This document shows, one piece after another, positions 21,377 to 50,564 of a stretch of 51,710 bases of DNA. Source of the stretch: Treponema sp. (GTDB lineage: Bacteria; Spirochaetota; Spirochaetia; Treponematales; Breznakiellaceae); the NCBI GenBank assembly GCA_009784935.1, contig WQXI01000014.1:1-51710 (forward strand), read 5' to 3'. Position numbers and translations under genes: made by a program. Each line of letters starts with the position of its first letter. The stretch's first letter is position 1. The notes under the pieces were generated by a model, which saw only the letters and a list, made by a program, of their open reading frames with translations, had not been told where the DNA came from and searched no databases.

Positions 21377-23344
21377 ATGCTCGTGTTAAAAAAGGTGGGT
21401 TCACACGAGTCTGTGTCTTTTAAAACAACATACATCAATAATCGCCGTTATCTTGGAAACAAATATAAACTTCTGCCATTCATCTCAACAGTGGTTGCCG
21501 AAAACTGTAGGGATGTGAATTCTATTGCGGACATTTTTGCTGGTACAGGAGCGGTTGCCTCTGCATTTACGGATAAACAGCTTATAACCAATGACAATCT
21601 TTATAGTAATTATATTTGTCATGTAGCTTGGTTTAGTCCACAATTATACTTACAAGATAAAATAGAGCGACTCGTATTTTACTATAACAACGTTTCTGTG
21701 ACGAGTGATAATTATGTAAGTAAAAATTTTGCAAATACTTTTTTTTGCCGGGCTGATTGTCGTAAAATAGGTTTCATTCGTGAAGATATTGAAAACCGAT
21801 TTTATTCAAATGAAATAAATGAACGAGAGCGGGCTTTGCTTATCACTTCATTGCTATATGCCGCCGATAAAATAGCCAATACCTGCGGTCATTACGATGC
21901 ATTCCGGCAAGGAGTGGAATTTGAAAAACATCTTGTGCTTTCGGTTCCATTGCCAAAAGATAGTTTGCATCCACAAAATATTTGTTATAACGAAGATACG
22001 AATGAATTAGTAAAGCATATTTCTGCAGATCTTGTATACATAGATCCTCCGTATAATTCACGGCAATACTGTGATGCTTATCATTTTTTGGAAAACATTG
22101 CTCGTTGGGAAAAACCAAAAGTATTTGGTGTGGCACGAAAAATGGATAGAGCAAGCTTAAAAAGTGATTACTGTACAAATAAGGCAACAGAAGCGTTTGA
22201 AAAGTTAATTGAAAATACCAGAGCTCGTTATATATTATTATCATATAATAATATGGCAAAAAAAGGAAACGATCGATCTAATGCCAAGATTGATGATTTT
22301 GATATTATACGTATCTTGTCGGCAAAAGGTGAGGTTAAAGTGTTTAAACAAGAATATAAACCCTTCTCGGCAGGAAAATCAGACATTGACGAACACGAGG
22401 AGCGGCTTTATCTTTGTATTTGTAAACCCAAAGTACAAAAATTTATCCAATCTCCGCTTAACTACACAGGTGGAAAATTCAAGCTGCTTAATCAGATTTT
22501 ACCACATTTTCCGGAAAAAATAGATACATTCATAGATCTATTTTGCGGAGGCTGCAATGTTGGTGTGAACGTTAAAGCAAATCGTATTATTCTAAATGAT
22601 AAAAACTCACACCTGCTTTACTTATACAATTCATTTAAAAATCTTGATAAATATACTATTTTGGATATAATTGATAAATTAATTAAAAAATATAAATTTT
22701 CTCGTTCGGCAGAAAAAGGATACAATTTTTACGGCTGTGAAAGTTCTGCCGGACTTGGCGAATTCAATCGAGAGCCTTTTCTAAAATTACGCGAAGACTT
22801 TAATAAAAAAAATGAGGACTATGCTTATTATATTATGCTTTATGTTCTTATTGTGTTTGCATTTAATAATCAAATTCGGTTCAATTCCAAAGGGGAATTC
22901 AATCTGCCTGTTGGTAAACGTGATTTTAATGATAAAATGAAGTCAAAATTATGTGATTTTATTGATCGCTTGCATGATGGTAATTTTGCATTTTCTTGTG
23001 TAGATTTTCGTGAGCTTGATACTAGTACATTATCAGAAGACAGTCTTGTTTATTGTGATCCACCATATTTAATTACCTGTGCTACATATAACGAGCAAGA
23101 TGGCTGGAATGAAAAGTGTGAACATGAATTATATGCAATGCTTGATATTTTAAATGGAAGAAAAATTAAGTTTGCTTTATCTAATGTTTTATGCAGTAAG
23201 GGAAAAATAAATACAATACTGGCAGAATGGTTAAAACTAAGAAATTACAAAACGATTCATTTGAATCACAGTTATTCAAACTCTAATTATCAAACAAAAA
23301 ACAGGAAAAGTTCAACAGATGAAGTTCTGATTTTGAATTATTAA
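21377..23344 (+). CDS. Double-domain DNA adenine N6-methyltransferase (type IIS, FokI-like)
   Basis: A 655-residue fusion of two alpha-type adenine methyltransferases. The N-terminal unit has motif X YLGNKYKLLPFI, motif I IADIFAGTG (about 52) and motif IV IDPPYNSRQY (about 222). The C-terminal unit has NYTGGKFKLL (about 361), motif I FIDLFCGG (about 387) and IV CDPPYLITC (about 560). Each unit would methylate one strand of an asymmetric site, as in M.FokI. It protects host DNA against the endonuclease immediately downstream, 12 bp away. The start ATG at 21377 follows GGGAGGGG. Codons are AT-richer than in the neighbours, suggesting acquired DNA. The recognition sequence is not deducible here. 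Confidence 0.88.
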   Translation: MLVLKKVGSHESVSFKTTYINNRRYLGNKYKLLPFISTVVAENCRDVNSIADIFAGTGAVASAFTDKQLITNDNLYSNYICHVAWFSPQLYLQDKIERLVFYYNNVSVTSDNYVSKNFANTFFCRADCRKIGFIREDIENRFYSNEINERERALLITSLLYAADKIANTCGHYDAFRQGVEFEKHLVLSVPLPKDSLHPQNICYNEDTNELVKHISADLVYIDPPYNSRQYCDAYHFLENIARWEKPKVFGVARKMDRASLKSDYCTNKATEAFEKLIENTRARYILLSYNNMAKKGNDRSNAKIDDFDIIRILSAKGEVKVFKQEYKPFSAGKSDIDEHEERLYLCICKPKVQKFIQSPLNYTGGKFKLLNQILPHFPEKIDTFIDLFCGGCNVGVNVKANRIILNDKNSHLLYLYNSFKNLDKYTILDIIDKLIKKYKFSRSAEKGYNFYGCESSAGLGEFNREPFLKLREDFNKKNEDYAYYIMLYVLIVFAFNNQIRFNSKGEFNLPVGKRDFNDKMKSKLCDFIDRLHDGNFAFSCVDFRELDTSTLSEDSLVYCDPPYLITCATYNEQDGWNEKCEHELYAMLDILNGRKIKFALSNVLCSKGKINTILAEWLKLRNYKTIHLNHSYSNSNYQTKNRKSSTDEVLILNY

Positions 23345-23356
23345 GGAGTGGGTGAT

Positions 23357-25345
23357 ATGCCGCATTTTCCTTTCAAAAGCTATTGCTGGTCTGTTGGGAC
23401 AACAAGTTTTAGAACTGTAGATTTTAATTTGCGAATTGAACGACAACTCGATCTACTTAATAAGTTCTGGAATTTACCTAATAATATTGATAAATCGTGG
23501 CGATGCTTGCAGCATGATTATTACCGATATATGCAGGAAAATAATTTTGTTAAAGGCAATGCACCTAACCCCATGAAAGATGCTCGAGAAAAAACATCAG
23601 GTCTAAAAAATATTGGATTGATAGATGGTAATAGAAAATTGACTTCAGTTGGAAAAGCGCTATTGGATATTTCAATTAATGGAAATTATAAAAGTGATAA
23701 TATACTTAAAATACCTAAAGACAGCTTTCTGTATTTAAAACAATTACTTAAAACGAGTAATGATATAGACGGAGATATCGTGCGCCCATTTGTTGTCACA
23801 ATATATGTACTTTTACAGCTTGATTGTTTAAATAACGATGAGTTTACTTATCTTCTTCCATTGTGTACGAATAAAGAAAATACAGAAATAATTATTAATA
23901 AAATAAAAAATTTACGTAAAGGAATTGGAACTATTGAAGAAATAATTACTTCGCGGCTTATGTTAATGGAAAACTATAAAAATGCCATTGAGTATTTTTT
24001 ATCTGAAAATGTGTCGGAAGATATTATTACTACTATAGGAATGAATCGCAAAAGCAGTGGAGCAGGAAAAAAAGCGTACGATAAGCCATATCATCAGTTA
24101 TACAAATTATTGTTTTCTTATGCAAAAAATAGAGATGAAAAATTAATATTACCATTGTTTGAGCAAAGCAAAAAATTAAAAGGCAATACAGCTGCTTTTT
24201 GGCGTAAATATTTGTTTAATACAACGGTTCGGAGGAAAATTGAACGTGAAGGTTCTGGAGCATTGAATGATGTTCCGATACTTAATGCATCTAATGAAGA
24301 TGATTTTAAAAAGCTTTTCTTTGAACTTATGCACTTTTTCAAAGCAAAAGCCAATTTGAGTGATTATGCGGATCTTAATAGACGGTATTTTAAGACAACT
24401 AATACTATGATTTTTTTTGATGGAGAAATTAGGCTGGATGTCCTCCCGCATTGTTGGCTGCATTCAATAATAAACGAATTATCAGAAATTGCCTTTTCCA
24501 GCAGTAAAGATCTTTTTATGAATGTTGAATTACCAGAAATAGCTCAATTCCTTGTTCTGGATGAAAATAAACTTTATACAAATTTGTATACGTTATATGG
24601 TATAAAAGCAAATAACGCTATTGATGTAGATAGTGAAATAAAGAAAAAACAATATGAACGTTTAAATATACTAATTGATAAAAAATTTAATAGAGCGAGA
24701 ATAATTGACTTGTTTAGAAAATTCGAAACTCGTGACGATGATGCTATACGTGAAGCTGTTACAAATAATGCTGATATCCCTACTATTTTTGAATATATTA
24801 TAGGTATTGCATGGTATCTAATCAGCGATCGTCAAGGTGATATTTTAAGTTATATGAATCTATCACTAGAAGCAGATTTATTGCCAAGAACACACGCAGG
24901 TGGTGGTATTGCGGATATAGAATACAAATATCTTCAAACAGATACTTATCCTGCGCATACATTATTAATAGAGGCTACGTTAACAACAGATGTAAACCAA
25001 CGAAGAGCAGAAATTGAGCCTGTGAGTCGTCATCTTGGTGACTATATTTTATCAACAGGAGATAAAAATGCGTATTGCATATTTGTTTCTAGTTTGTTGC
25101 ATCGTAATACTATAAGCGATTACCGTAATCGCAAAACATATGAGCACTTTAGTGTTGATTTTAAAGATATTGTAAAAGGATTAAAAATTATACCGCTGGC
25201 TACGCCTGAACTTCGAAAAATATTAGAATGTGGAATTAATTATAAACAACTATTTGATCTATTTGAGTCTGCGTATCGTTCAGATTCTGCTATCCCAGTA
25301 TGGTATTGTAATGAAATTGTGAAAGGTATTAATAATATTTTGTAA
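23357..25345 (+). CDS. AlwI-family type IIS restriction endonuclease
   Basis: A 662-residue protein. The C-terminal half holds a PD-(D/E)xK-like core: GGGIADIEYK (Asp near residue 520) followed about 19 residues later by LLIEATL (Glu), then TDVNQRRAEIEPVSRHL. This ordering is my recollection of the AlwI family. The N-terminal part (KSYCWSVGTTSFRTVDFN) would recognise DNA. Together with the double methylase it makes a complete type IIS system cutting at a distance from an asymmetric site. AAGGAG eight bases before the ATG at 23357 decides the start over the GTG three codons earlier. The gene is very AT-rich. Confidence 0.8.
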   Translation: MPHFPFKSYCWSVGTTSFRTVDFNLRIERQLDLLNKFWNLPNNIDKSWRCLQHDYYRYMQENNFVKGNAPNPMKDAREKTSGLKNIGLIDGNRKLTSVGKALLDISINGNYKSDNILKIPKDSFLYLKQLLKTSNDIDGDIVRPFVVTIYVLLQLDCLNNDEFTYLLPLCTNKENTEIIINKIKNLRKGIGTIEEIITSRLMLMENYKNAIEYFLSENVSEDIITTIGMNRKSSGAGKKAYDKPYHQLYKLLFSYAKNRDEKLILPLFEQSKKLKGNTAAFWRKYLFNTTVRRKIEREGSGALNDVPILNASNEDDFKKLFFELMHFFKAKANLSDYADLNRRYFKTTNTMIFFDGEIRLDVLPHCWLHSIINELSEIAFSSSKDLFMNVELPEIAQFLVLDENKLYTNLYTLYGIKANNAIDVDSEIKKKQYERLNILIDKKFNRARIIDLFRKFETRDDDAIREAVTNNADIPTIFEYIIGIAWYLISDRQGDILSYMNLSLEADLLPRTHAGGGIADIEYKYLQTDTYPAHTLLIEATLTTDVNQRRAEIEPVSRHLGDYILSTGDKNAYCIFVSSLLHRNTISDYRNRKTYEHFSVDFKDIVKGLKIIPLATPELRKILECGINYKQLFDLFESAYRSDSAIPVWYCNEIVKGINNIL

Positions 25346-42861: not shown

Positions 42862-43290
42862 TTATGCCGCGTTATTTGCAGCATTAATCTGAATAAGTCT
42901 TTTTTGCGCTTCCGGGCGTTTCATTATTTCGAGACGGAGTACGCCGTTTATAAAAGACGCATTTACAGCTTCTTTGTCGGCATTCTCGGGAAGTTTAAAA
43001 GACCGGGTAAAGGCGTTAGTTCTTCGTTCTTTTAGAATGAAATCACCTTCTTCGTTTTTTTCTTCGTTCTGCTTAAAGGCAATAGTCAGATATGAACCGT
43101 CAACGTGAACATTGATGTTCTTTTCGTCATAACCCGGCAGATCCATAGAAAGAATGTAAGCTTGTTCGTTCTCTCTGATATCTGCCGCAGGCGTTAAAAC
43201 AGATCCTCCAAAGAAAGAATCAAAGTAACGTTCAAAATCGCCTAAAACGTTTTGAATTGAATTGGGGCGGTATAAGTTTAAAGTTGTCAT
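42862..43290 (-). CDS. Small heat-shock protein, Hsp20/IbpA family
   Basis: A 142-residue alpha-crystallin chaperone that holds unfolded proteins. The N-terminal LGDFERYFDSFFGG is followed by the crystallin core (ADIRENEQAYILSMDLPGY to ASFINGVLRLEI) with the conserved NGVLRLEI near the end. AGGAA lies seven bases before the ATG. A sigma-54-type promoter with a 115-nt leader precedes it. The leader contains a stable hairpin. Its terminator is visible. Confidence 0.93.
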   Translation of the reverse strand: MTTLNLYRPNSIQNVLGDFERYFDSFFGGSVLTPAADIRENEQAYILSMDLPGYDEKNINVHVDGSYLTIAFKQNEEKNEEGDFILKERRTNAFTRSFKLPENADKEAVNASFINGVLRLEIMKRPEAQKRLIQINAANNAA

Positions 43291-43435: not shown

Positions 43436-43724
43436 GCACCCAAAATATTCTCTATTTATTCAAAAATGTATACATAAAAACCGATTTTTGCAAATCACCA
43501 CCGGCTCCGGATGGCTGTGGCATTATTAACGCACGCTTTGGCGTGACATTTTTCCGATCCACACCATAAGTCGCCAGCAGGAGTTTGTAAAAATCGTCTA
43601 CAGAATACATTTTTTGTATAGAATGAGTTATTATGACACACTAAAAGAAAAATAGCTAAATTTTGTATCAATTTGACACAGAAATTGAGATTAAAAGAAC
43701 AATTGACAGTTAAATGTATTGAAT
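43436..43724. other. Intergenic stretch, no gene seen
   Basis: Between the hsp20 promoter and brnA. It is AT-rich, with no likely coding frame; the one 102-residue frame running into it is antisense-like shift from brnA. If the sigma-54 activator binds upstream of the hsp20 promoter, its site would lie here, but no obvious palindrome was found. Confidence 0.6.
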
Positions 43725-44009
43725 TTATACCGATTGCAGCATAGCTTGCCGAAGAATAGAATTGGCTCTTGTTTGGTATCCAGAACCAGCTTCCTTTAGC
43801 CACTCAAGAACGTCGGCATCAACGCGAATTTGAACTGTCTTCTTTATGGGTTTGTAGAGACGGGCATCCGGATATTTTGGTTTAAACTCTTTTAGCTGTT
43901 CAGGTGTTTGGACAGGACAATCTGTAAAATTTTTAGTTTTAAAGTTTTTTAACTCGGCTATACGTTCATCACTCATAGGGGGTAATTTGTTTTTGTTTGT
44001 TTTCGTCAT
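43725..44009 (-). CDS. brnA: BrnA antitoxin
   Basis: A 94-residue protein with a C-terminal ribbon-helix-helix-like domain: KKTVQIRVDADVLEWLKEAGSGYQTRANSILRQAM is the BrnA/CopG-like signature. It neutralises BrnT and represses the operon. Its start overlaps the brnT end by 41 bases, typical of BrnT-BrnA loci. AAGGAAG precedes the ATG. Confidence 0.88.
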   Translation of the reverse strand: MTKTNKNKLPPMSDERIAELKNFKTKNFTDCPVQTPEQLKEFKPKYPDARLYKPIKKTVQIRVDADVLEWLKEAGSGYQTRANSILRQAMLQSV

Positions 44010-44295
44010 AATACTTCCTTTCCGGAGCTTCCGCTAATCGGGCAGATATTATCCTTGTTCGATCAGCTCGCTCAGTATACGAAATAAAAAAGTAAATACG
44101 CTGATTAAAAGATGCTATGCCCTTCCAACGTATTTCGTCCAATGTAGAATTCTCACGATCATAAGCTTCAATGAAGAAAGGATCATCAAATGCAGCCAAG
44201 ATTTCTTCAAAGTAAAACCCGTGGTCTTCTTTGTTCAAGGTGTTTTTGCTATCATCCCATTCAAATCGACCATCAAGACTTATAATAGTGCTCAT
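43969..44295 (-). CDS. brnT: BrnT toxin, ribonuclease type
   Basis: A 108-residue protein of the BrnT family, RelE-like fold toxins that cleave RNA. The signatures FEWDDSKNTLNKEDHGFYFEE, FFISYTERADRTRIISARLAE and KYYDEN are visible. It precedes the antitoxin, as in other BrnT-BrnA operons. The ATG at 44295 is seven bases after the -10 box and is itself part of a 32-bp palindrome, so translation probably begins at or next to the transcript end. No Shine-Dalgarno. Confidence 0.85.
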   Translation of the reverse strand: MSTIISLDGRFEWDDSKNTLNKEDHGFYFEEILAAFDDPFFIEAYDRENSTLDEIRWKGIASFNQRIYFFISYTERADRTRIISARLAEAPERKYYDENKQKQITPYE

Positions 44296-44330
44296 TACAT
44301 AAATGTATATACTTTTATGTAATGTGTCAA
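44293..44330 (-). promoter_or_regulatory. brnTA promoter with 32-bp palindromic operator
   Basis: On the minus strand TTGACA (44330-44325), 17 bp, TACATT (44307-44302). A 32-bp inverted repeat with one mismatched pair runs 44293-44324, covering the spacer, the -10 and the brnT ATG. It is likely the BrnA autorepression site. Confidence 0.7.
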
Positions 44331-44363
44331 GTGCTTTTTTTTATTAAATAGAATTTTGGTAGA

Positions 44364-44714
44364 TTAGGAGTTGGATTGCAAATCTTCGTGCTTTTTTATT
44401 GATTCTACAAGTGATAGCGCAATTTTTTGGTAATCGGGGTTTAGTTTTTCTATTACTCTAGCCATGTGACGAATTTCCGGCGAAAAATGGGCTGCAGTTT
44501 TAGTTTCTGATGAGTCTTGACCGGTTATAAGGTATTCGACAGATACACCTAAAACCTTGGCAATACGCACAGCAACATCTGCCGCAGGCATTCTTCCTCG
44601 AACACTCAGATAGTTGTCAATAGTGTGTTTCTTTAAACCAGTTTTTGCAGCCAGTTCCTTAACAAGTATTCCAGAATAAGACAATTCTGCCTTTAAATTC
44701 TCCCTAAACCCCAT
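44364..44714 (-). CDS. XRE-family transcriptional regulator
   Basis: A 116-residue repressor-like protein. The N-terminal helix-turn-helix (VKELAAKTGLKKHTIDNYLS, about 18-37) belongs to the XRE/Cro-CI group, followed by GVSVEYLITGQ and a helical C-terminal part. It sits head-to-head with the TPR cassette and should control it and itself. ATG 44714 lies seven bases after TAATAT (44727-44722) without a Shine-Dalgarno. The proposed operator overlaps its promoter spacer. The -35 is weak, as expected for a regulated gene. A short gap separates it from brnT. Confidence 0.85.
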   Translation of the reverse strand: MGFRENLKAELSYSGILVKELAAKTGLKKHTIDNYLSVRGRMPAADVAVRIAKVLGVSVEYLITGQDSSETKTAAHFSPEIRHMARVIEKLNPDYQKIALSLVESIKKHEDLQSNS

Positions 44715-44727
44715 ACTTTACATATTA

Positions 44728-44822
44728 GGCTAAAAAGCATATTTGTATGTTGACATTTTGCTTATTGTAGAATATTATTATCACATTATGCTTTTAAGCC
44801 AAATTGGGAAAAAATAAGCATA
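44728..44822. promoter_or_regulatory. Four related operator half-sites between XRE gene and cassette
   Basis: GGCTAAAAAGCATA (44728-44741) and TATGCTTTTAAGCC (44787-44800) are inverted copies (13 of 14 match). TTTGCTTATTG (44757-44767) and TAAGCATA (44815-44822) hold the same AAGCA core. One site overlaps the XRE promoter, one the spacer and one the start of the cassette promoter. Confidence 0.6.
44750..44778 (+). promoter_or_regulatory. Promoter of the TPR cassette
   Basis: TTGACA (44750-44755), 17 bp, TATTAT (44773-44778). The transcript should start near 44785, inside the operator 44787-44800. AAGGAAGG precedes the ATG at 44854. Confidence 0.8.
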
Positions 44823-44853
44823 AAAATTGTTTTATATAAAGGAAGGTCTTTTT

Positions 44854-45633
44854 ATGGGTTATTTTATTGCTGCTGTCGGCTTGGTGGTTTTTATAGTTAT
44901 AGCAGTTAAAGTTGTTAATGCAATTAAAGATAAAAAATTGGAAAAAAATGAAGAGATAGCCAACTACCTTTTAATTAAAGCTAGGCAAGGAGACACGCAG
45001 GCTGCATTTGATTTAGGATTACACTATAAAAATACTGAAAAACTTGGTGACGCAACTTTCTGGTTACAAAAAGCCGTTCACCATGAGATAAACGAAGCAA
45101 AGGTTGAATTAGATTATTGTAAATGCAAACTGGAAGAGCAATTGAAAAAACTGGAGGATTTTGTAAAAAACAATAAATTCAATAATTATGAAGCAATCAA
45201 AGAATGTTGCACCGAATTGGAAAAAAGTGGCTATGTGTTAAGTTATTCTTTTTATAATGGTAAAGACAAAGATTGTTGTTATGCTTTTGTCGGGTTACGC
45301 GATGCCCTAAACAATGGGAGTATAAGATTTGATACACATACACATGATACAATAGGTGTTAATTGGGAGTTTTCCTGTGATAATGAGATTTTTCCCAAAT
45401 GGCATTTAGAAAAAGCTGGTTGTTTATATGGTAAGCATGCTATTCAATTAGATAAAGCTGCCATAATGCTCAATTCAGATATCCCCTCATCAGAACCACC
45501 GCCAGAATGGATGATGATATGCGCAAAAATTCTTGCAAAAGGTTTTACAATTCGTTATCCCCAATGGGTTGAAGAGAACCCTGACGCAAAAGAATATGTG
45601 AATGTAGCTTTCAAAAATCTTGGTTTATTATAA
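44854..45633 (+). CDS. Membrane-anchored Sel1-like repeat protein, cassette gene 1
   Basis: A 259-residue protein with one N-terminal helix (about 3-23, IAAVGLVVFIVIAVKVVN) and a Sel1/TPR-like repeat (ARQGDTQAAFDLGLHYKNTEKLGDATFWLQKAV). The following 150 residues (KSGYVLSYSFYNGKDKDCCY, DTIGVNWEFSCD) are an unrecognised domain. The ATG at 44854 is preferred over the TTG at 44827 because AAGGAAGG is correctly spaced only for it. First gene after the XRE-controlled promoter. Confidence 0.7.
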   Translation: MGYFIAAVGLVVFIVIAVKVVNAIKDKKLEKNEEIANYLLIKARQGDTQAAFDLGLHYKNTEKLGDATFWLQKAVHHEINEAKVELDYCKCKLEEQLKKLEDFVKNNKFNNYEAIKECCTELEKSGYVLSYSFYNGKDKDCCYAFVGLRDALNNGSIRFDTHTHDTIGVNWEFSCDNEIFPKWHLEKAGCLYGKHAIQLDKAAIMLNSDIPSSEPPPEWMMICAKILAKGFTIRYPQWVEENPDAKEYVNVAFKNLGLL

Positions 45634-45643
45634 GGAGGCAATT

Positions 45644-45880
45644 ATGTCAAGTACAAATTTTACCGTAGGTAGCTGCGGAATGATTATGAAAAGCGGCTGT
45701 AATACTGGTTACTCTGTAAGCGGCAGCAATATCTTAAAAAGCGGATGTTTCACTAAGTTTTCTGTAAATAATGGCGGAAAAATTATGGATGGCAGTTCTG
45801 AAACTGGTTATGTCATTAGCGGAGGTTCTATTACGCAAGAAAGTAACAAAGGATACTCCATAGGATATATGTTTAGCTAA
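45644..45880 (+). CDS. Short solenoid-like repeat protein, cassette gene 2
   Basis: A 78-residue Gly/Ser-rich protein made of about four 16-17-residue repeats: MIMKSGCNTGYSVSGSN, ILKSGCFTKFSVNNGGK, IMDGSSETGYVISGGS and a last ITQESNKGYSIGYMFS; a partial unit starts it. The pattern I-x-x-S-x-x-T-x-Y-x-V-S-x-G suggests a short beta solenoid. No signal peptide. The ATG at 45644 follows AAGGAGG closely. It lies 10 bp after gene 1. No function known. Confidence 0.65.
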   Translation: MSSTNFTVGSCGMIMKSGCNTGYSVSGSNILKSGCFTKFSVNNGGKIMDGSSETGYVISGGSITQESNKGYSIGYMFS

Positions 45881-45894
45881 AAAGGGAGATGTAT

Positions 45895-45975
45895 ATGAAA
45901 ACTATTGAAGAACTTGATCGAGAAATTCAACAAGATCCAAATAATGCAGAGCTGTATAGACTACGTGGTTGTGAA
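45895..45975 (+). repeat. Direct repeat copy 1, first 81 bp of TPR gene 3
   Basis: Matches 46825-46905 with five differences in 81 bp (about 94 %), both coding MKTIEELDREIQ then DxNNAELYRLRGCE. The identity is higher than the rest of the TPR genes. Confidence 0.85.
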
Positions 45976-46302
45976 TATATGTATAAAGATGAAAATGATC
46001 GTGCTATTGAAGATTTTAATCTATCTATTCAACTTGATCCTAATAATGCACATACATTTTTACAACGTGCAACGGCATATTCTAAAAAAGAAGATGATGA
46101 TAGTTCTATCAAGGATTACGATCAGGTAATAAAATTAAATCCAAACGAAGCAAGAGCATATTGTTTCCGTGGTTGTGCTTATGGATATAAAGGAGATGTT
46201 GACAAATGTATTTCTGACTTAGAAACTGCATTACAGATAGCTCCAGATTTTTCTTTAGCTAAAGAGAAGCTACTTGAAGCTCGAAAGATTCGAGGTTATT
46301 AA
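45895..46302 (+). CDS. TPR protein, cassette gene 3
   Basis: About 135 residues, with three TPR units (NNAELYRLRGCEYMYKDEND, NNAHTFLQRATAYSKKEDDD, NEARAYCFRGCAYGYKGDVD). ATG 45895 follows GGGAG by six bases. Its N-terminus is almost identical to that of gene 5, including the DNA, which points to a recent duplication. Confidence 0.8.
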   Translation: MKTIEELDREIQQDPNNAELYRLRGCEYMYKDENDRAIEDFNLSIQLDPNNAHTFLQRATAYSKKEDDDSSIKDYDQVIKLNPNEARAYCFRGCAYGYKGDVDKCISDLETALQIAPDFSLAKEKLLEARKIRGY

Positions 46303-46330
46303 GGATTTAAATTTAAGATGGAGATTTTTA

Positions 46331-46828
46331 ATGGCAAGTAGTGAAGAATATTTTAAAAGTGGTGAAGCATTTTATTATGATAAAAAATATGATATGGCAA
46401 TCGAAGAGTTCACAAAAGCAATTAATATAGATCCAAATGCTTCTAATGTTGCACTAATATATGGTTTTCGTGGTCTTTCTTACCAGGATAAAGGTGATTA
46501 CGATTTGGCAATTGCTGATTTTACAGTTATGATACGGTTATTTCCTAATGCATTATCGTATCGAAACCGTGGTATAGCATATACAAGAAAACAAGAATAT
46601 AACAATGCATTTCTAGATTTCGAAGCTGCGCTTCAGCTTGATCCGAATGATGCTAAAACATATTTAAACCGAGGTATACTATATGGTGCAAAAAATGATT
46701 TTAACCAGGCGATTAGTGACTTTGAATCAGTCTTAATTATTGAGCCAGATAATAAAATAGCTAAAGGTTTTCTAGAAGAAATTAGAGGAGTATATAGAAA
46801 TAATAAACGCTTAGGAGGAAAATTATGA
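46331..46828 (+). CDS. TPR protein, cassette gene 4
   Basis: A 165-residue protein with four TPR units (SSEEYFKSGEAFYYDKKYDM, ALIYGFRGLSYQDKGDYDLA, SYRNRGIAYTRKQEYNNAFL, TYLNRGILYGAKNDFNQAIS). GGAG seven bases before the ATG at 46331 decides the start. Its stop overlaps gene 5 by four bases. Presumably cytoplasmic; role as scaffold is inferred from the TPR fold only. Confidence 0.8.
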   Translation: MASSEEYFKSGEAFYYDKKYDMAIEEFTKAINIDPNASNVALIYGFRGLSYQDKGDYDLAIADFTVMIRLFPNALSYRNRGIAYTRKQEYNNAFLDFEAALQLDPNDAKTYLNRGILYGAKNDFNQAISDFESVLIIEPDNKIAKGFLEEIRGVYRNNKRLGGKL

Positions 46829-46905
46829 AAACTATTGAAGAACTTGATCGAGAAATTCAACTTGATTCAAATAATGCAGAGCTGTATAGGTTACGTGGTT
46901 GTGAA
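46825..46905 (+). repeat. Direct repeat copy 2, first 81 bp of TPR gene 5
   Basis: Partner of 45895-45975. Recombination between the copies would delete genes 3 and 4 and leave one in-frame fused TPR gene. Confidence 0.85.
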
Positions 46906-47583
46906 CATTATAAAAAAAAGGATTATGACAGTGCAATGAAGGACTTTGAGCAGGCTATACAGATTAATCCAAGTTTTGCACGAGCATATGTAAACCGGGG
47001 GCTTATGTTTGAGGTAACAAATGCACCTGATCGTGCGGTGGCAGATTATAGTAAAGCGATCCAGATTGATCCAAAATTTACGGAAGCATATATCAATCGT
47101 GGGTGTATGTGCTCTGATAGCGGTGCTGCGTATACTTTTGCAGAAAATGATGTTGAAAAAGGTTTTTCTTTTTTTAATCTAGCTATTGCAGATTTTAACC
47201 AAGCGATAAATATTGATTCTAGTAATGCAATGATTTTTGTATATCGCGCAATGGCTTATAGGGGTATAAAGGATTATGACAAAGCAATAATGGACTTTGA
47301 TCAAGCAATAAATATAAATCCAAATTTTTCGGAAGCATACCGGTTACGTGGAGATATATATAGAAGCAAAAAAGATTTTGATCGGGCACTTGCAGATTTT
47401 AGCCAGGCGTTACAGTTTGATCCAAAAAATGAAAATGCATTTAGTTCTCGAGCCCTTTTATTTTATACTAATGGCGATTATGCTAAAGCAATCACAGACT
47501 GGGAGGCTATATTGCAAATTAATCCTAATAATTCTAGTGTCGAAATGGATATAAAAATGGCAAAGATGAAAATGGGCAACTAA
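46825..47583 (+). CDS. TPR protein, cassette gene 5
   Basis: A 252-residue protein with about six TPR units, for example ARAYVNRGLMFEVTNAPDRA, AMIFVYRAMAYRGIKDYDKA and SEAYRLRGDIYRSKKDFDRA. The first units repeat gene 3. GGAGG precedes the ATG at good spacing. The gap to gene 6 is 49 bp. Confidence 0.82.
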   Translation: MKTIEELDREIQLDSNNAELYRLRGCEHYKKKDYDSAMKDFEQAIQINPSFARAYVNRGLMFEVTNAPDRAVADYSKAIQIDPKFTEAYINRGCMCSDSGAAYTFAENDVEKGFSFFNLAIADFNQAINIDSSNAMIFVYRAMAYRGIKDYDKAIMDFDQAININPNFSEAYRLRGDIYRSKKDFDRALADFSQALQFDPKNENAFSSRALLFYTNGDYAKAITDWEAILQINPNNSSVEMDIKMAKMKMGN

Positions 47584-47632
47584 AAATAAGATTTTTTACA
47601 TCAATTTAGTTTTATAAAAAAGGAGAAAGAAT

Positions 47633-49558
47633 TTGTCCAACCTGCCTATACCGTTTTATTATAGTCAATACACCGCAAAAGAACGCTCGTATGTTGAATA
47701 TATGGGAGAAATAAATAAGTCCATTGGTTCTGCTATAACAAGTAATACATACAAACAGATCGCTGTAATAGAAAGTAATACAAATAAACAGATTGCCGCA
47801 AATGCAATGTTTACTGAAGATATAAAATCGACACTTATTAATAATCAAATCGCTAGCGAAAAAGCTATGTACAATCATACACAGCAGCTAAATAATACAT
47901 TCGCAACAGGGTTTTCTGGTATTTCAAGACAATTAGGTGATATGGGCTTTGCTATGAGTACAGGACTAGCTCTTTTAAATGACGCAGTGCAGAAATCATC
48001 AAAAGACATATGTAATAGACTTGATGAAATTAATGATACTCTTAAAAATCCATTGTTTACTCAAGCTCGAGAGTTGTACAGAATGGCATTCCAAAATTAT
48101 ATTAGAGCGCTATATAAAGAAACATTAGAAGATTTGAATGAAGCGGTAAAAAAATATAAAACAGATCCTTTTTCTTTTTTTCTTTTAGGTCAAACATATT
48201 TATTTGGAATAAACAAAGATGACAATGTAATAGACTTGAATGCCTCTATTGAATCATTTAAATATGCCGCAAAATATATAGACTATGACGCAAAGAAAAA
48301 TAAAGAAGCAAGTTTATTGGCTGCAGAGATTTCGTTTTATTTAGGATTGGCTTATCAAACCAAGGCAAATGATGATTTACATAATGCAAATGAAGCAGAT
48401 TATGAAAAAAATCTTGAAAACGCAAAATCTGCCTATAGCAAATCGTGGGAATATTCGAATAATATGCTGGAATCCTTATATAATCGAGCTCGATGTAAGG
48501 TTTTGCTTAATCAAAAAGAATCTGCTCTTGATGATTTAGAAAAATTGATCTTATTAGATAGAAATTATTGCTTAAAAATATTTAATGATGACGATTTTAA
48601 GAATGTATTGGATGATTTTACATTACTAATTAGTAAATTGAAACATAATATTTTTATCATAATTGAAAAAAAATATATTAAAATTAAAAATTTAATTAAC
48701 GAATTGAAAACATTGAGCAATCGTGATTTAAGTTATAGGATTCCCCATGATTTTACTGAAGAAATACCTTATTTTGATATACTAGATTATAATGTTGATT
48801 TTTCTAAAACGATTATGGATATAGAAGATGCAATAAGTATAGAAAATAAAAAAATAAGAGATTTTGATGAGCAAAAACTAAAATATGAATTGGAGCAAAA
48901 AGAAAAACAACGTCAAATTGAATATGAGCGTGTAGAAAAAGAGCGTCAAGCAGAATATGAAGCAGAAAGAGATCGTCAATACAAAAAAGAGCAAATAAAA
49001 GAATTTAGAAAAAAAGGAATTAACATTTTCCTACATATAGTATCGTATATATCATTGCTTAGCGGAATCGCTTTATTTATTTTTTCGTTTTTATTGCAGA
49101 GAAATGAAGTAGTCTTTGGTTATTTAATGCTTAGTTTAATCCCTCCTGTTTTAGGTTTTGTTATCGGGGGAATTATTAATATTGTAAGAAAAAAAATATT
49201 TTTAAATAATTATGATATATTAAATGAAAATATTTTTTTAATAGCCCTGCTCTTTTTTGCATTAATTACTATTATTATGGCATTTTTAGGAATAAATGTT
49301 TCTTCTAATATTTTTGTTGGATTATTTTCAACAATTGTTATTTCAATACCTTTAGGATTATCAATAATATTTATCAACGTATCAAAAAACTGGTTTGTTA
49401 AAATGATCTTTTTAATAGTGGGAGTGGTTTTAAATATTTTAATTTATAATTGGGTTAATGATATAATATATCATACAAAAGAAATATTATATTTTAATAC
49501 ATCACGTGCAAGTCATTTAATAGCATGTTTAGTGGCAATGATTAGAAGAAAGGATTAA
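47633..49558 (+). CDS. Large TPR, coiled-coil and membrane protein, cassette gene 6
   Basis: A 641-residue protein. Residues 1-30 have an unusual IPFYYSQYTAKERSYVEYMGEI start. A helical region (about 31-130) is followed by FTQARELYRMAFQNYIRALY and TPR-like helices (about 140-310), with SFFLLGQTYLFGINKDDNVIDL. A long charged coiled coil (about 405-460) leads to five or six transmembrane helices (462-625). The start is TTG with AGGAG seven bases before. It resembles other large TPR membrane proteins of unknown function; I recall similar sequences in other bacteria but no assigned role. Confidence 0.75.
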   Translation: MSNLPIPFYYSQYTAKERSYVEYMGEINKSIGSAITSNTYKQIAVIESNTNKQIAANAMFTEDIKSTLINNQIASEKAMYNHTQQLNNTFATGFSGISRQLGDMGFAMSTGLALLNDAVQKSSKDICNRLDEINDTLKNPLFTQARELYRMAFQNYIRALYKETLEDLNEAVKKYKTDPFSFFLLGQTYLFGINKDDNVIDLNASIESFKYAAKYIDYDAKKNKEASLLAAEISFYLGLAYQTKANDDLHNANEADYEKNLENAKSAYSKSWEYSNNMLESLYNRARCKVLLNQKESALDDLEKLILLDRNYCLKIFNDDDFKNVLDDFTLLISKLKHNIFIIIEKKYIKIKNLINELKTLSNRDLSYRIPHDFTEEIPYFDILDYNVDFSKTIMDIEDAISIENKKIRDFDEQKLKYELEQKEKQRQIEYERVEKERQAEYEAERDRQYKKEQIKEFRKKGINIFLHIVSYISLLSGIALFIFSFLLQRNEVVFGYLMLSLIPPVLGFVIGGIINIVRKKIFLNNYDILNENIFLIALLFFALITIIMAFLGINVSSNIFVGLFSTIVISIPLGLSIIFINVSKNWFVKMIFLIVGVVLNILIYNWVNDIIYHTKEILYFNTSRASHLIACLVAMIRRKD

Positions 49559-49664
49559 AATAAGCCATAAAACCAGATTTAAAAACTACACTAAAGTCAA
49601 ATAGAATAATTCATTAAGCAGGGGCGCATAGCCCTGACGGCGTCTATGGCAGTTGTGTAAAGCA

Positions 49665-49735
49665 ATCCATCACTCTTAATATTTCTTAGTAATTATATTA
49701 TGTAATATATGTTAAATCACGATTAAGTGATGGAT
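49665..49735. repeat. Inverted repeat with 41-base loop
   Basis: Left arm ATCCATCACTcTTAAT (49665-49680) and right arm ATTAAGTGATGGAT (49722-49735) pair with one bulge. No T-run, so not a plain terminator. May be remains of a mobile element. Confidence 0.6.
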
Positions 49736-49848
49736 GAGTTATAGTGTATTTTTTTCAATTCTGCCATTTAGCCGGAATGGGGTATGCGACTCTGTCTTTT
49801 TGTACATTTAAATGTGAAACATTGTTGTTTATAAAATGAGATAAAACT

Positions 49849-49875
49849 TTTGCGGTCAAAAATTTTGACCGCAAA
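49849..49875. promoter_or_regulatory. 27-bp near-perfect palindrome upstream of the ORF6N promoter
   Basis: A 13-bp arm TTTGCGGTCAAAA pairs with its complement around one central base. It lies 39 bases ahead of the -35 box and matches the coding palindrome at 50164-50190 in 25 of 27 bases, with the two differences forming a compensatory pair. Confidence 0.8.
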
Positions 49876-49914
49876 CCCCTTCAACTTAGCTTGATATTTT
49901 AGTTTTAAAACTAC

Positions 49915-49944
49915 TTGACATATATATAGGTACTATACTATAAT
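49915..49944 (+). promoter_or_regulatory. Promoter of the ORF6N gene
   Basis: TTGACA (49915-49920), 18 bp, TATAAT (49939-49944). The leader is about 30 bases; AAGGA is 14 bases before the ATG, farther than usual. Confidence 0.8.
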
Positions 49945-49981
49945 TACCATATCTTAAAGCAAAAGGATTGGTAGCCTAAAT

Positions 49982-50512
49982 ATGCGTACTATTAATGTTG
50001 ATTCCAAAATAGTTGAAGTCCGTAAAATGAAAGTTTTATTGGACAGCGACGTCGCTGCTCTCTATGGAGTAGAGACAAAACGAATAAACGAAGCTGTAAA
50101 AAATAACATAGACAAGTTTCCAAAGGGATATATTATCTCCCTGAATAGTAAAGAGATAAAAGATTTGCGGTCGAAAATTTCGACCGCAAATAATAATAGT
50201 AAAACCCGTGTCTTGCCTAAAGCCTTTACCGAAAAAGGCTTATATATGCTTGCTACGATACTCAAAAGCCCTAAGGCAACGCAGACAACTTTGGCAATAA
50301 TCGAAACTTTTGCTAAGATTCGTGAACTGACAAGAACCGTGGGAGAGCTGTCTAAAACGACAACAAAAGAAGAGAAGCAGCCGCTAATGCAAAAAAGCGG
50401 TGAGATTATGGCAGACATATTAGGCGATTCATTAAATATTTCCGAAACAGAAACCTCTTTTGAGATTAATTTAGCGGTAATGAATATAAAGCACACAGTT
50501 AAAAGAAAATAA
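49982..50512 (+). CDS. ORF6N-domain (KilA-N-like) DNA-binding protein
   Basis: A 176-residue protein with an ORF6N domain: VRKMKVLLDSDVAALYGVET, INEAVKNNIDKFPKGYI, and RVLPKAFTEKGLYMLATILKS. The domain is common in phage antirepressors and mobile DNA; the protein may bind DNA. The C-terminal part is helical with a MADILGDSLN stretch. The DNA that codes LRSKISTAN forms a 27-bp palindrome like one upstream of the gene. An inexact version lies after the stop. Confidence 0.85.
   Translation: MRTINVDSKIVEVRKMKVLLDSDVAALYGVETKRINEAVKNNIDKFPKGYIISLNSKEIKDLRSKISTANNNSKTRVLPKAFTEKGLYMLATILKSPKATQTTLAIIETFAKIRELTRTVGELSKTTTKEEKQPLMQKSGEIMADILGDSLNISETETSFEINLAVMNIKHTVKRK
50164..50190. promoter_or_regulatory. 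Coding-sequence copy of the 27-bp palindrome
   Basis: Arms TTTGCGGTCG and CGACCGCAAA around AAAATTT, inside the ORF6N coding region. Its centre is 315 bp from the centre of the upstream copy, close to 30 helical turns. Confidence 0.75.
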
Positions 50513-50524
50513 CTTGTTAAAACT

Positions 50525-50551
50525 GAACCGGTCAAAAATATTGACCAGTTC
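50525..50551. promoter_or_regulatory. Imperfect palindrome upstream of the GH94 promoter
   Basis: GAACCGGTCAA and TTGACCAGTTC around AAATA share the GGTCAA/TTGACC core with the two ORF6N palindromes. It lies 13 bases ahead of the -35 box and, like the ORF6N site, is followed by CCTTCAA and a promoter. Confidence 0.65.
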
Positions 50552-50564
50552 AAATTCCTTCAAT

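Follow-up and report, generated by a model that had tools for sequence, protein, structure and literature searches.

What is the role of six consecutive genes for repeat and membrane proteins that face the gene of a CI-like repressor? The question is raised by a locus at positions 44364-49558 of a 51,710-nt contig from Treponema sp. (WQXI01000014.1, assembly GCA_009784935.1), the whole of which is hereafter called the window. The locus consists of xre and six co-directional genes, termed g1 to g6, all of which lie where a first-pass annotation of this DNA had placed them. It is read here as an XRE-repressed, mobile, and modular operon for a membrane scaffold with a probable role in conflict (anti-phage defence), a tentative reading in which doubt slightly outweighs confidence. 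Three points favour defence: the cargo found at the same chromosomal site in relatives, the AIPR gene beside a g2 homologue, and the patchy inheritance. The observations of the first-pass annotation are confirmed, and its interpretation is partly supported.

The Likely Operon and Its Probable Repressor

With the best start codon taken for each gene, the gaps from g1 to g6 measure 10, 14, 28, -4, and 49 nt, and a purine-rich ribosome-binding site precedes each of the six genes, as described in the first pass. Because the gaps are short and each gene has its ribosome-binding site, the six genes likely form one operon (Table 1). The g1 product had been called a membrane Sel1-like protein: one transmembrane segment is found by hydropathy, but the Sel1 likeness is seen by eye only, the best Pfam match being Clathrin (0.0032) and not Sel1. 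Its residues 204-264 match a protein of genome G098 in which a hydrophobic helix likewise forms the N-terminus (E 1.9e-5). The g2 protein is repetitive, as claimed (lag-16 self-identity of 16 vs 6.2 in shuffles, z 4.4), and perhaps folds as a small β-solenoid. The g3, g4, and g5 proteins, mutually 34-39% identical, are TPR proteins with Pfam matches from 8.7e-21 to 3.2e-47. The g6 start codon is a TTG, backed by the aligned N-termini of relatives; the protein combines a coil-TPR core with about five hydrophobic segments in residues 469-605 (hydropathy), in keeping with its earlier description as a TPR, coiled-coil, and multi-span membrane protein. Second copies of g1, g2, and g6 were searched for in the same genome, and none was found.

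The xre product matches Phage_CI_repr (2e-8) and HTH_3 (2.8e-6) in Pfam, as well as transcriptional repressors in PHROG. Seven matches to the operator-like 11-mer WAWAAGCAWAW occur in the 51.7-kb window (mean of 3.49 in shuffles of the whole window), four of them within 92 bp between xre and g1; no formal p-value is attached to this cluster because the motif was defined after the region had been seen. The shorter AWAAGCAWA shows no enrichment over shuffles across the whole window (10 vs 8.2). One 11-mer is located inside the spacer of a sigma70-like operon promoter and another just downstream of it; the promoter scan returned 38 sites overall vs 36.6 in shuffles, so that a consensus match is not in itself proof of a promoter. 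A weaker candidate promoter for xre overlaps that of the operon on the minus strand, which would fit autoregulation of xre. From this layout we infer that XRE binds the four 11-mers, and its control of the operon is likely.

Table 1. Coordinates of the operon, its putative control elements, and the surrounding genes in the window
Feature	Position	Strand	Description	Basis
xre	44364..44714	-	116-aa CI-like HTH repressor, facing away from operon	Pfam, PHROG
g1	44854..45633	+	single transmembrane helix; by eye, a stretch resembling Sel1/TPR; unassigned C-terminal domain	
g2	45644..45880	+	78-aa repeat protein, ~16-residue repeats	
g3	45895..46302	+	TPR protein	Pfam
g4	46331..46828	+	TPR protein	Pfam
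g5	46825..47583	+	TPR protein	Pfam
g6	47633..49558	+	coil-TPR core (~76-350) and variable C-terminus, here a charged stretch and ~five transmembrane helices	
Operator-like 11-mer 1	44732-44742	+	WAWAAGCAWAW	
Operator-like 11-mer 2	44756-44766	-	WAWAAGCAWAW	
Operator-like 11-mer 3	44786-44796	-	WAWAAGCAWAW	
Operator-like 11-mer 4	44813-44823	+	WAWAAGCAWAW	
Candidate operon promoter	44750..44778	+	sigma70-like, TTGACA-17-TATTAT	11/12 consensus matches
Candidate xre promoter	44802-44774	-	weaker, overlaps operon promoter	9/12 consensus matches
Insert (approximate extent)	43684..50560		BrnTA, xre operon, and ORF6N, between Hsp20 and GH94	
Hsp20	42862-43290	-	left flank	
brnT-brnA	43725..44295	-	toxin-antitoxin pair, same insert, outside operon	Pfam
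ORF6N gene	49982..50512	+	anti-repressor-like, same insert; own promoter-like site 49915-49944	
GH94	50628-	+	right flank	by-eye reading

The g6 Family: A Shared Core with Diverse Ends

No Pfam model matches g6 at 1e-3. Its core carries the 56-position end-of-TPR module of the NCBIfam model TPR_END_plus (NF047558) above the cut-off (1.5e-9, 37.7 bits vs 32), but the match spans just 47 of 641 residues and tells no function. Solved structures offer just two designed TPR proteins (E 0.0019 and 0.0084). The helix preceding the TPR part is amphipathic and can be written in 11-residue units; its hydrophobicity spectrum peaks at a mean of 99.5 degrees (20 of the 22 rows, those with the anchor motif), a value that alone cannot separate 11-residue units (98.2) from a plain α-helix (100).

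A search at the family level matched 13 of 195 genomes, 11 of them over the core and two (G079, G152) weakly and outside it, and a profile of the core matched 19 of 390 genomes of the order at 1e-10. In all, 22 g6 loci were assembled, G079, G152, and G065 (core in two short frames) being omitted. Residues ~126-350 are present in essentially all 22 loci and 76-125 in most, whereas little is shared past ~400. The C-termini, some of which are cut by contig ends, carry transmembrane segments in nine loci (hydropathy), BspA-LRR in three, RCC1 in two, and FGE (G005) and ankyrin in one each (Pfam), while that of G057 looks like TPR by eye. Since the same core bears other C-terminal modules elsewhere, g6 may act as an adaptor whose sensor or effector end can be swapped.

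In the g6 tree, the window's gene and that of G486, a genome related at the class level only, are sisters with full support, their trimmed cores being 59% identical. The approximately unbiased test rejects a clade of the four g6 genes from the same genus (p-AU 1.0e-4) as well as a grouping of the window with G155, the groups having been picked after a tree had been viewed. Because the tree contradicts kinship, either transfer or old duplications followed by much loss must be assumed. A phylum-wide search matched 101 genomes and was contaminated by the repeat C-termini; among the matches listed, the core reached good scores in the window's own genome and eight others. An exact-pattern scan of a contig collection recovered six g6 loci, all from spirochaetes, and missed members found by the genome searches, which may or may not belong to that collection, so restriction of the family to spirochaetes is unproven. 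A plasmid or phage home was considered and rejected, g6 being unmatched in the plasmids, phages, and viral contigs searched and g2 in the viral contigs.

Repressor Linkage and Related Loci

An upstream walk found a divergent XRE gene at the head of a co-directional g6 run, with an intergenic region of 93-157 bp, in eight of the 22 loci (G000, G155, G408, G232, G627, G661, G655, and G621: the window and seven others). At G108 the walk halted at a probably spurious open reading frame, and by eye an XRE gene heads a long run there; at G486 a convergent XRE gene follows g6. An independent HTH_3 scan gave 603 matches in ~56 Mb of 21 genomes (sizes rounded, positions listed up to a cap), and at this density less than one chance XRE-g6 case is expected. 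The XREs of these loci differ a good deal from each other. The long TPR/g6 run of G108 begins with a NusG-like (KOW) gene (L024:14218-14751); specialised NusG paralogues are known to help the transcription of long operons.

Part of the window's gene set recurs in G155 (contig C20), in the order xre, ankyrin-CFI, g2, TPR, LpoB/CsgG-like, InlB-repeat, and g6. Its g2 is 84% identical to that of the window over 77 residues, and purifying selection follows from a dN of 0.09 against a dS of 1.42 (dN/dS ~0.06). In G155 the site equivalent to that of the window is a 284-bp junction on another contig (C8). g2 was found in three of the 195 genomes, each time followed by a TPR gene. The third case, in G147 (L034:5923-11144), comprises DUF3990, nucleotidyltransferase/HepT, g2, a TPR protein with a hydrophobic start, and AIPR/AbiU genes, with neither g6 nor XRE nearby; this cluster looks like a small defence island.

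A different set of partners is found in family f2, of the same order, in which the g6 genes of G533, G458, G655, G621, and G661 form one supported clade. In all five loci (L077, L078, L100, L101, and L102), g6 is followed by a gene whose zinc-ribbon product shows, by eye, an ATP motif of AAA type; the one scanned, from G533, matches SpoVK/CbbX/EccA models. A further zinc-ribbon gene is present in four of the five loci (two scanned), the G661 contig ending first, a divergent XRE gene in three, and a Lgt-like membrane protein (one scanned) together with a Cys-rich protein in two. ORF6N or KilA-N genes lie near three XRE cassettes, those of the window, G655, and G627. CFI-box-CTERM ends were noticed on an ankyrin protein (L017:14692-15648), a Sel1 protein (L024:9563-10288), and a g6-LRR protein (L023:4580-7165).

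Another conceivable role is that the TPR, Sel1, ankyrin, LRR, and RCC1 repeat proteins are exported and act on other gut cells. The repeats of the cassettes are eukaryote-like, the CFI-box ends occur on three related-locus proteins, and Treponema metagenome-assembled genomes make up four of the six relatives that have names, with isolate codes that we take to denote termite-gut samples. Such a host or symbiont interaction is very unlikely, considering the transmembrane segments in g6 and g1 and the presence of the family in f2 genomes with an AAA partner.

A Variable Insertion Site

Among 38 other genomes of the same genus, 15 hold both Hsp20 and GH94 on one contig. The Hsp20-GH94 junction is 284-528 bp long in ten of them, 1.34-1.44 kb in four, and 4.63 kb in one, compared with 7337 bp in the window. 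This intergenic site is an insertion hotspot in the genus, five of the 15 relatives holding other cargo. By Pfam, this cargo includes an AbiEii-type protein (G175), PDDEXK_2 (G163), Peptidase_C92 (G165), and an HTH-PIN-ankyrin protein with radical SAM and UPRTase-like genes (G172); G157 holds a 250-aa protein. To the left of the insert, a stretch resembling the short junctions is kept at 43609-43683, and TGTGTCA/TGACACA motifs can be made out in it by eye; the insert thus lies between this stretch and GH94. Its right edge is not sharp, and direct repeats or a target duplication were looked for at the ends and none was found. The GC content drops to 0.27-0.35 across 44001-50000 against ~0.41 in most of the window, confirming the AT-richness noted in the first pass. 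A second AT-rich stretch lies at 22001-25000 (0.30-0.32). The mobility of the operon is well supported.

Alternatively, the insert might be selfish or decaying cargo, stabilised by BrnTA, with an XRE operon of no current use. The flanking BrnTA and ORF6N genes, the low GC content, and a g1 that is nearly an orphan agree with this. All reading frames of the operon are nevertheless intact, g2 is under purifying selection, and the XRE-g6 pairing recurs in several lineages, making this explanation quite unlikely. A prophage remnant was rejected: in a PHROG scan of seven proteins, g1, g2, and g6 gave nothing, and xre, ORF6N, BrnA, and BrnT matched regulators or toxin-antitoxin proteins.

A Possible Conflict System and How It Might Work

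The operon might be accessory equipment that serves in stress or against phages. In the repressed state, XRE bound to the four sites over the divergent promoters would keep both operon and xre low. A trigger would abolish this binding, perhaps through an anti-repressor, either the neighbouring ORF6N protein or one encoded by a phage. The TPR proteins and g2 would then assemble with the coil-TPR core of g6, the C-terminal helices of which would tether the complex to the membrane next to g1, and membrane assembly or damage might finally protect the population against the invader.

Several points weigh against a conflict system. No enzyme or known toxin family is found in the operon by Pfam or NCBIfam, the lack of an enzyme having already been remarked in the first pass. 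In PADLOC-DB 2.0, g1, g2, g4, and g6 are unmatched, and xre, g3, and g5 have HTH- or TPR-type matches only; of the mobile or defence setting claimed earlier, the mobile and partly defence-type insertion site stands, but none of the genes hits a model specific to a known defence system. Neighbours that would fit a defence island (site cargo, G147, G627, G655) come from scans of chosen neighbours. Of the neighbourhood of g6, g2, and XRE that the first pass proposed to look for, the XRE-g6 link recurs, but in 12 of the 22 g6 loci the sequence read contains no XRE gene (G178, G005, G057, G041, G176, G104, G186, PG1894_85, G521, G533, G458, and G633; less than 0.3 kb of upstream sequence was available for G178, as for G486, and the walk ran into the contig end in PG1894_85). 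Several of these 12 adjoin ordinary-looking genes (by eye), and the XRE hidden Markov model carries a bias, its training sequences having initially been selected by eye from the loci under study. The same gene order at another chromosomal place, named as support in the first pass, was re-found once, for part of the set (G155), and never for all six genes; for g1, there are just two weak partial matches. The failure of g6 to match plasmids, phages, or viral contigs, and of g2 to match the latter, counts on the same side. The position of ORF6N beside the operon may be chance, and patchiness alone equally fits other accessory functions.

A serious rival, albeit itself rather unlikely, is an inducible envelope or stress scaffold, in which XRE derepresses the operon under stress and the TPR, coiled-coil, and transmembrane proteins stabilise or organise membrane complexes with no invader involved. 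Every part is indeed of scaffold type, the site adjoins Hsp20, the G155 version includes LpoB/CsgG-like and InlB-repeat proteins, and in the f2 versions there are an AAA protein of SpoVK/CbbX type and a Lgt-like membrane protein (each scanned in one). The patchy distribution, a g6 tree at odds with kinship, and same-site cargo in relatives that is partly toxin-antitoxin or nuclease-like speak against it.

An extension of the conflict-system reading, unlikely as it stands, would see in these loci an undescribed conflict family of spirochaetes, made of an XRE switch, the coil-TPR adaptor g6 with exchangeable ends, lineage-specific partners, and a trigger of the ORF6N/KilA-N anti-repressor type encoded nearby. 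In the genus of the window, the partners would be TPR proteins and small repeat proteins; in the f2 clade, a zinc-ribbon AAA ATPase of SpoVK/CbbX type. Literature searches gave no published description of the g6 family among the matches listed. If this reading of the loci is right, one adaptor family explains a set of unnamed repeat-protein operons of spirochaetes, the g6 core with a divergent XRE is a marker for finding more of them, and the switch is testable, its operator-like sites and candidate anti-repressor being mapped to the base.

Relation to Known Systems

CBASS CapH and RstR-like repressors belong to XRE-controlled cassettes, with which the locus shares a small repressor of CI type, encoded divergently from its probable target operon. 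The best PADLOC match overall is that of xre to capH (1.9e-9), and xre matches NCBIfam RstR at 3.5e-8, far below the cut-off. By Pfam and PADLOC, neither CapP nor a CD-NTase or effector nuclease is present among the operon proteins, which separates the locus from CBASS.

The closest published idea is that of superstructure-forming effectors in NTP-dependent conflict systems, where ~70% of the vWA proteins in the studied set have superstructure-forming or scaffold domains in effector position (Kaur et al. 2020, PMC7159879). TPR, HEAT, coiled-coil, pentapeptide, and β-propeller scaffolds serve there as effectors. In contrast, the vWA-MoxR-VMAP or GTPase cores described there are lacking in the operon: no AAA or vWA Pfam match was found in the six genes and xre (for g5, among the best 25 of 36 families), and an AAA ATPase accompanies g6 only in the f2 relatives, of SpoVK/CbbX type. 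The STAND/DGR putative antigen-sensor systems (PMC10907252) have exchangeable C-terminal sensors including TPR and FGE-fold domains, and the g6 of G005 ends in FGE; unlike them, the operon has no STAND NTPase or reverse transcriptase. Finally, PMC11090510 describes a SpoVK-type AAA protein beside a putative membrane protein, similar to the f2 g6 loci, but the operon is without McrBC, a vWA component, or an ATPase.

Neighbouring Genes within the Insert

The brnTA and ORF6N neighbours reported in the first pass are backed by Pfam. BrnT (3.4e-19) and BrnA (2.5e-16) are encoded by overlapping genes, as a type II BrnTA pair. Small plasmids from Treponema putidum and T. denticola carry BrnT relatives with ~44% identity, and relatives of BrnT occur on 709 plasmid records in all. 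The ORF6N protein (9.4e-32) also matches the PHROG anti-repressor family phrog_4792 (6.6e-20). A palindrome, GCGGTC(A/G)AAAATTT(T/C)GACCGC, is found upstream of its frame (49852-49872) and inside it (50167-50187), and is possibly an operator for ORF6N. These are the only two copies in the genome at up to two mismatches; a third, imperfect one follows the frame at 50518-50546, and the Hsp20-GH94 junction of G157 has a similar one.

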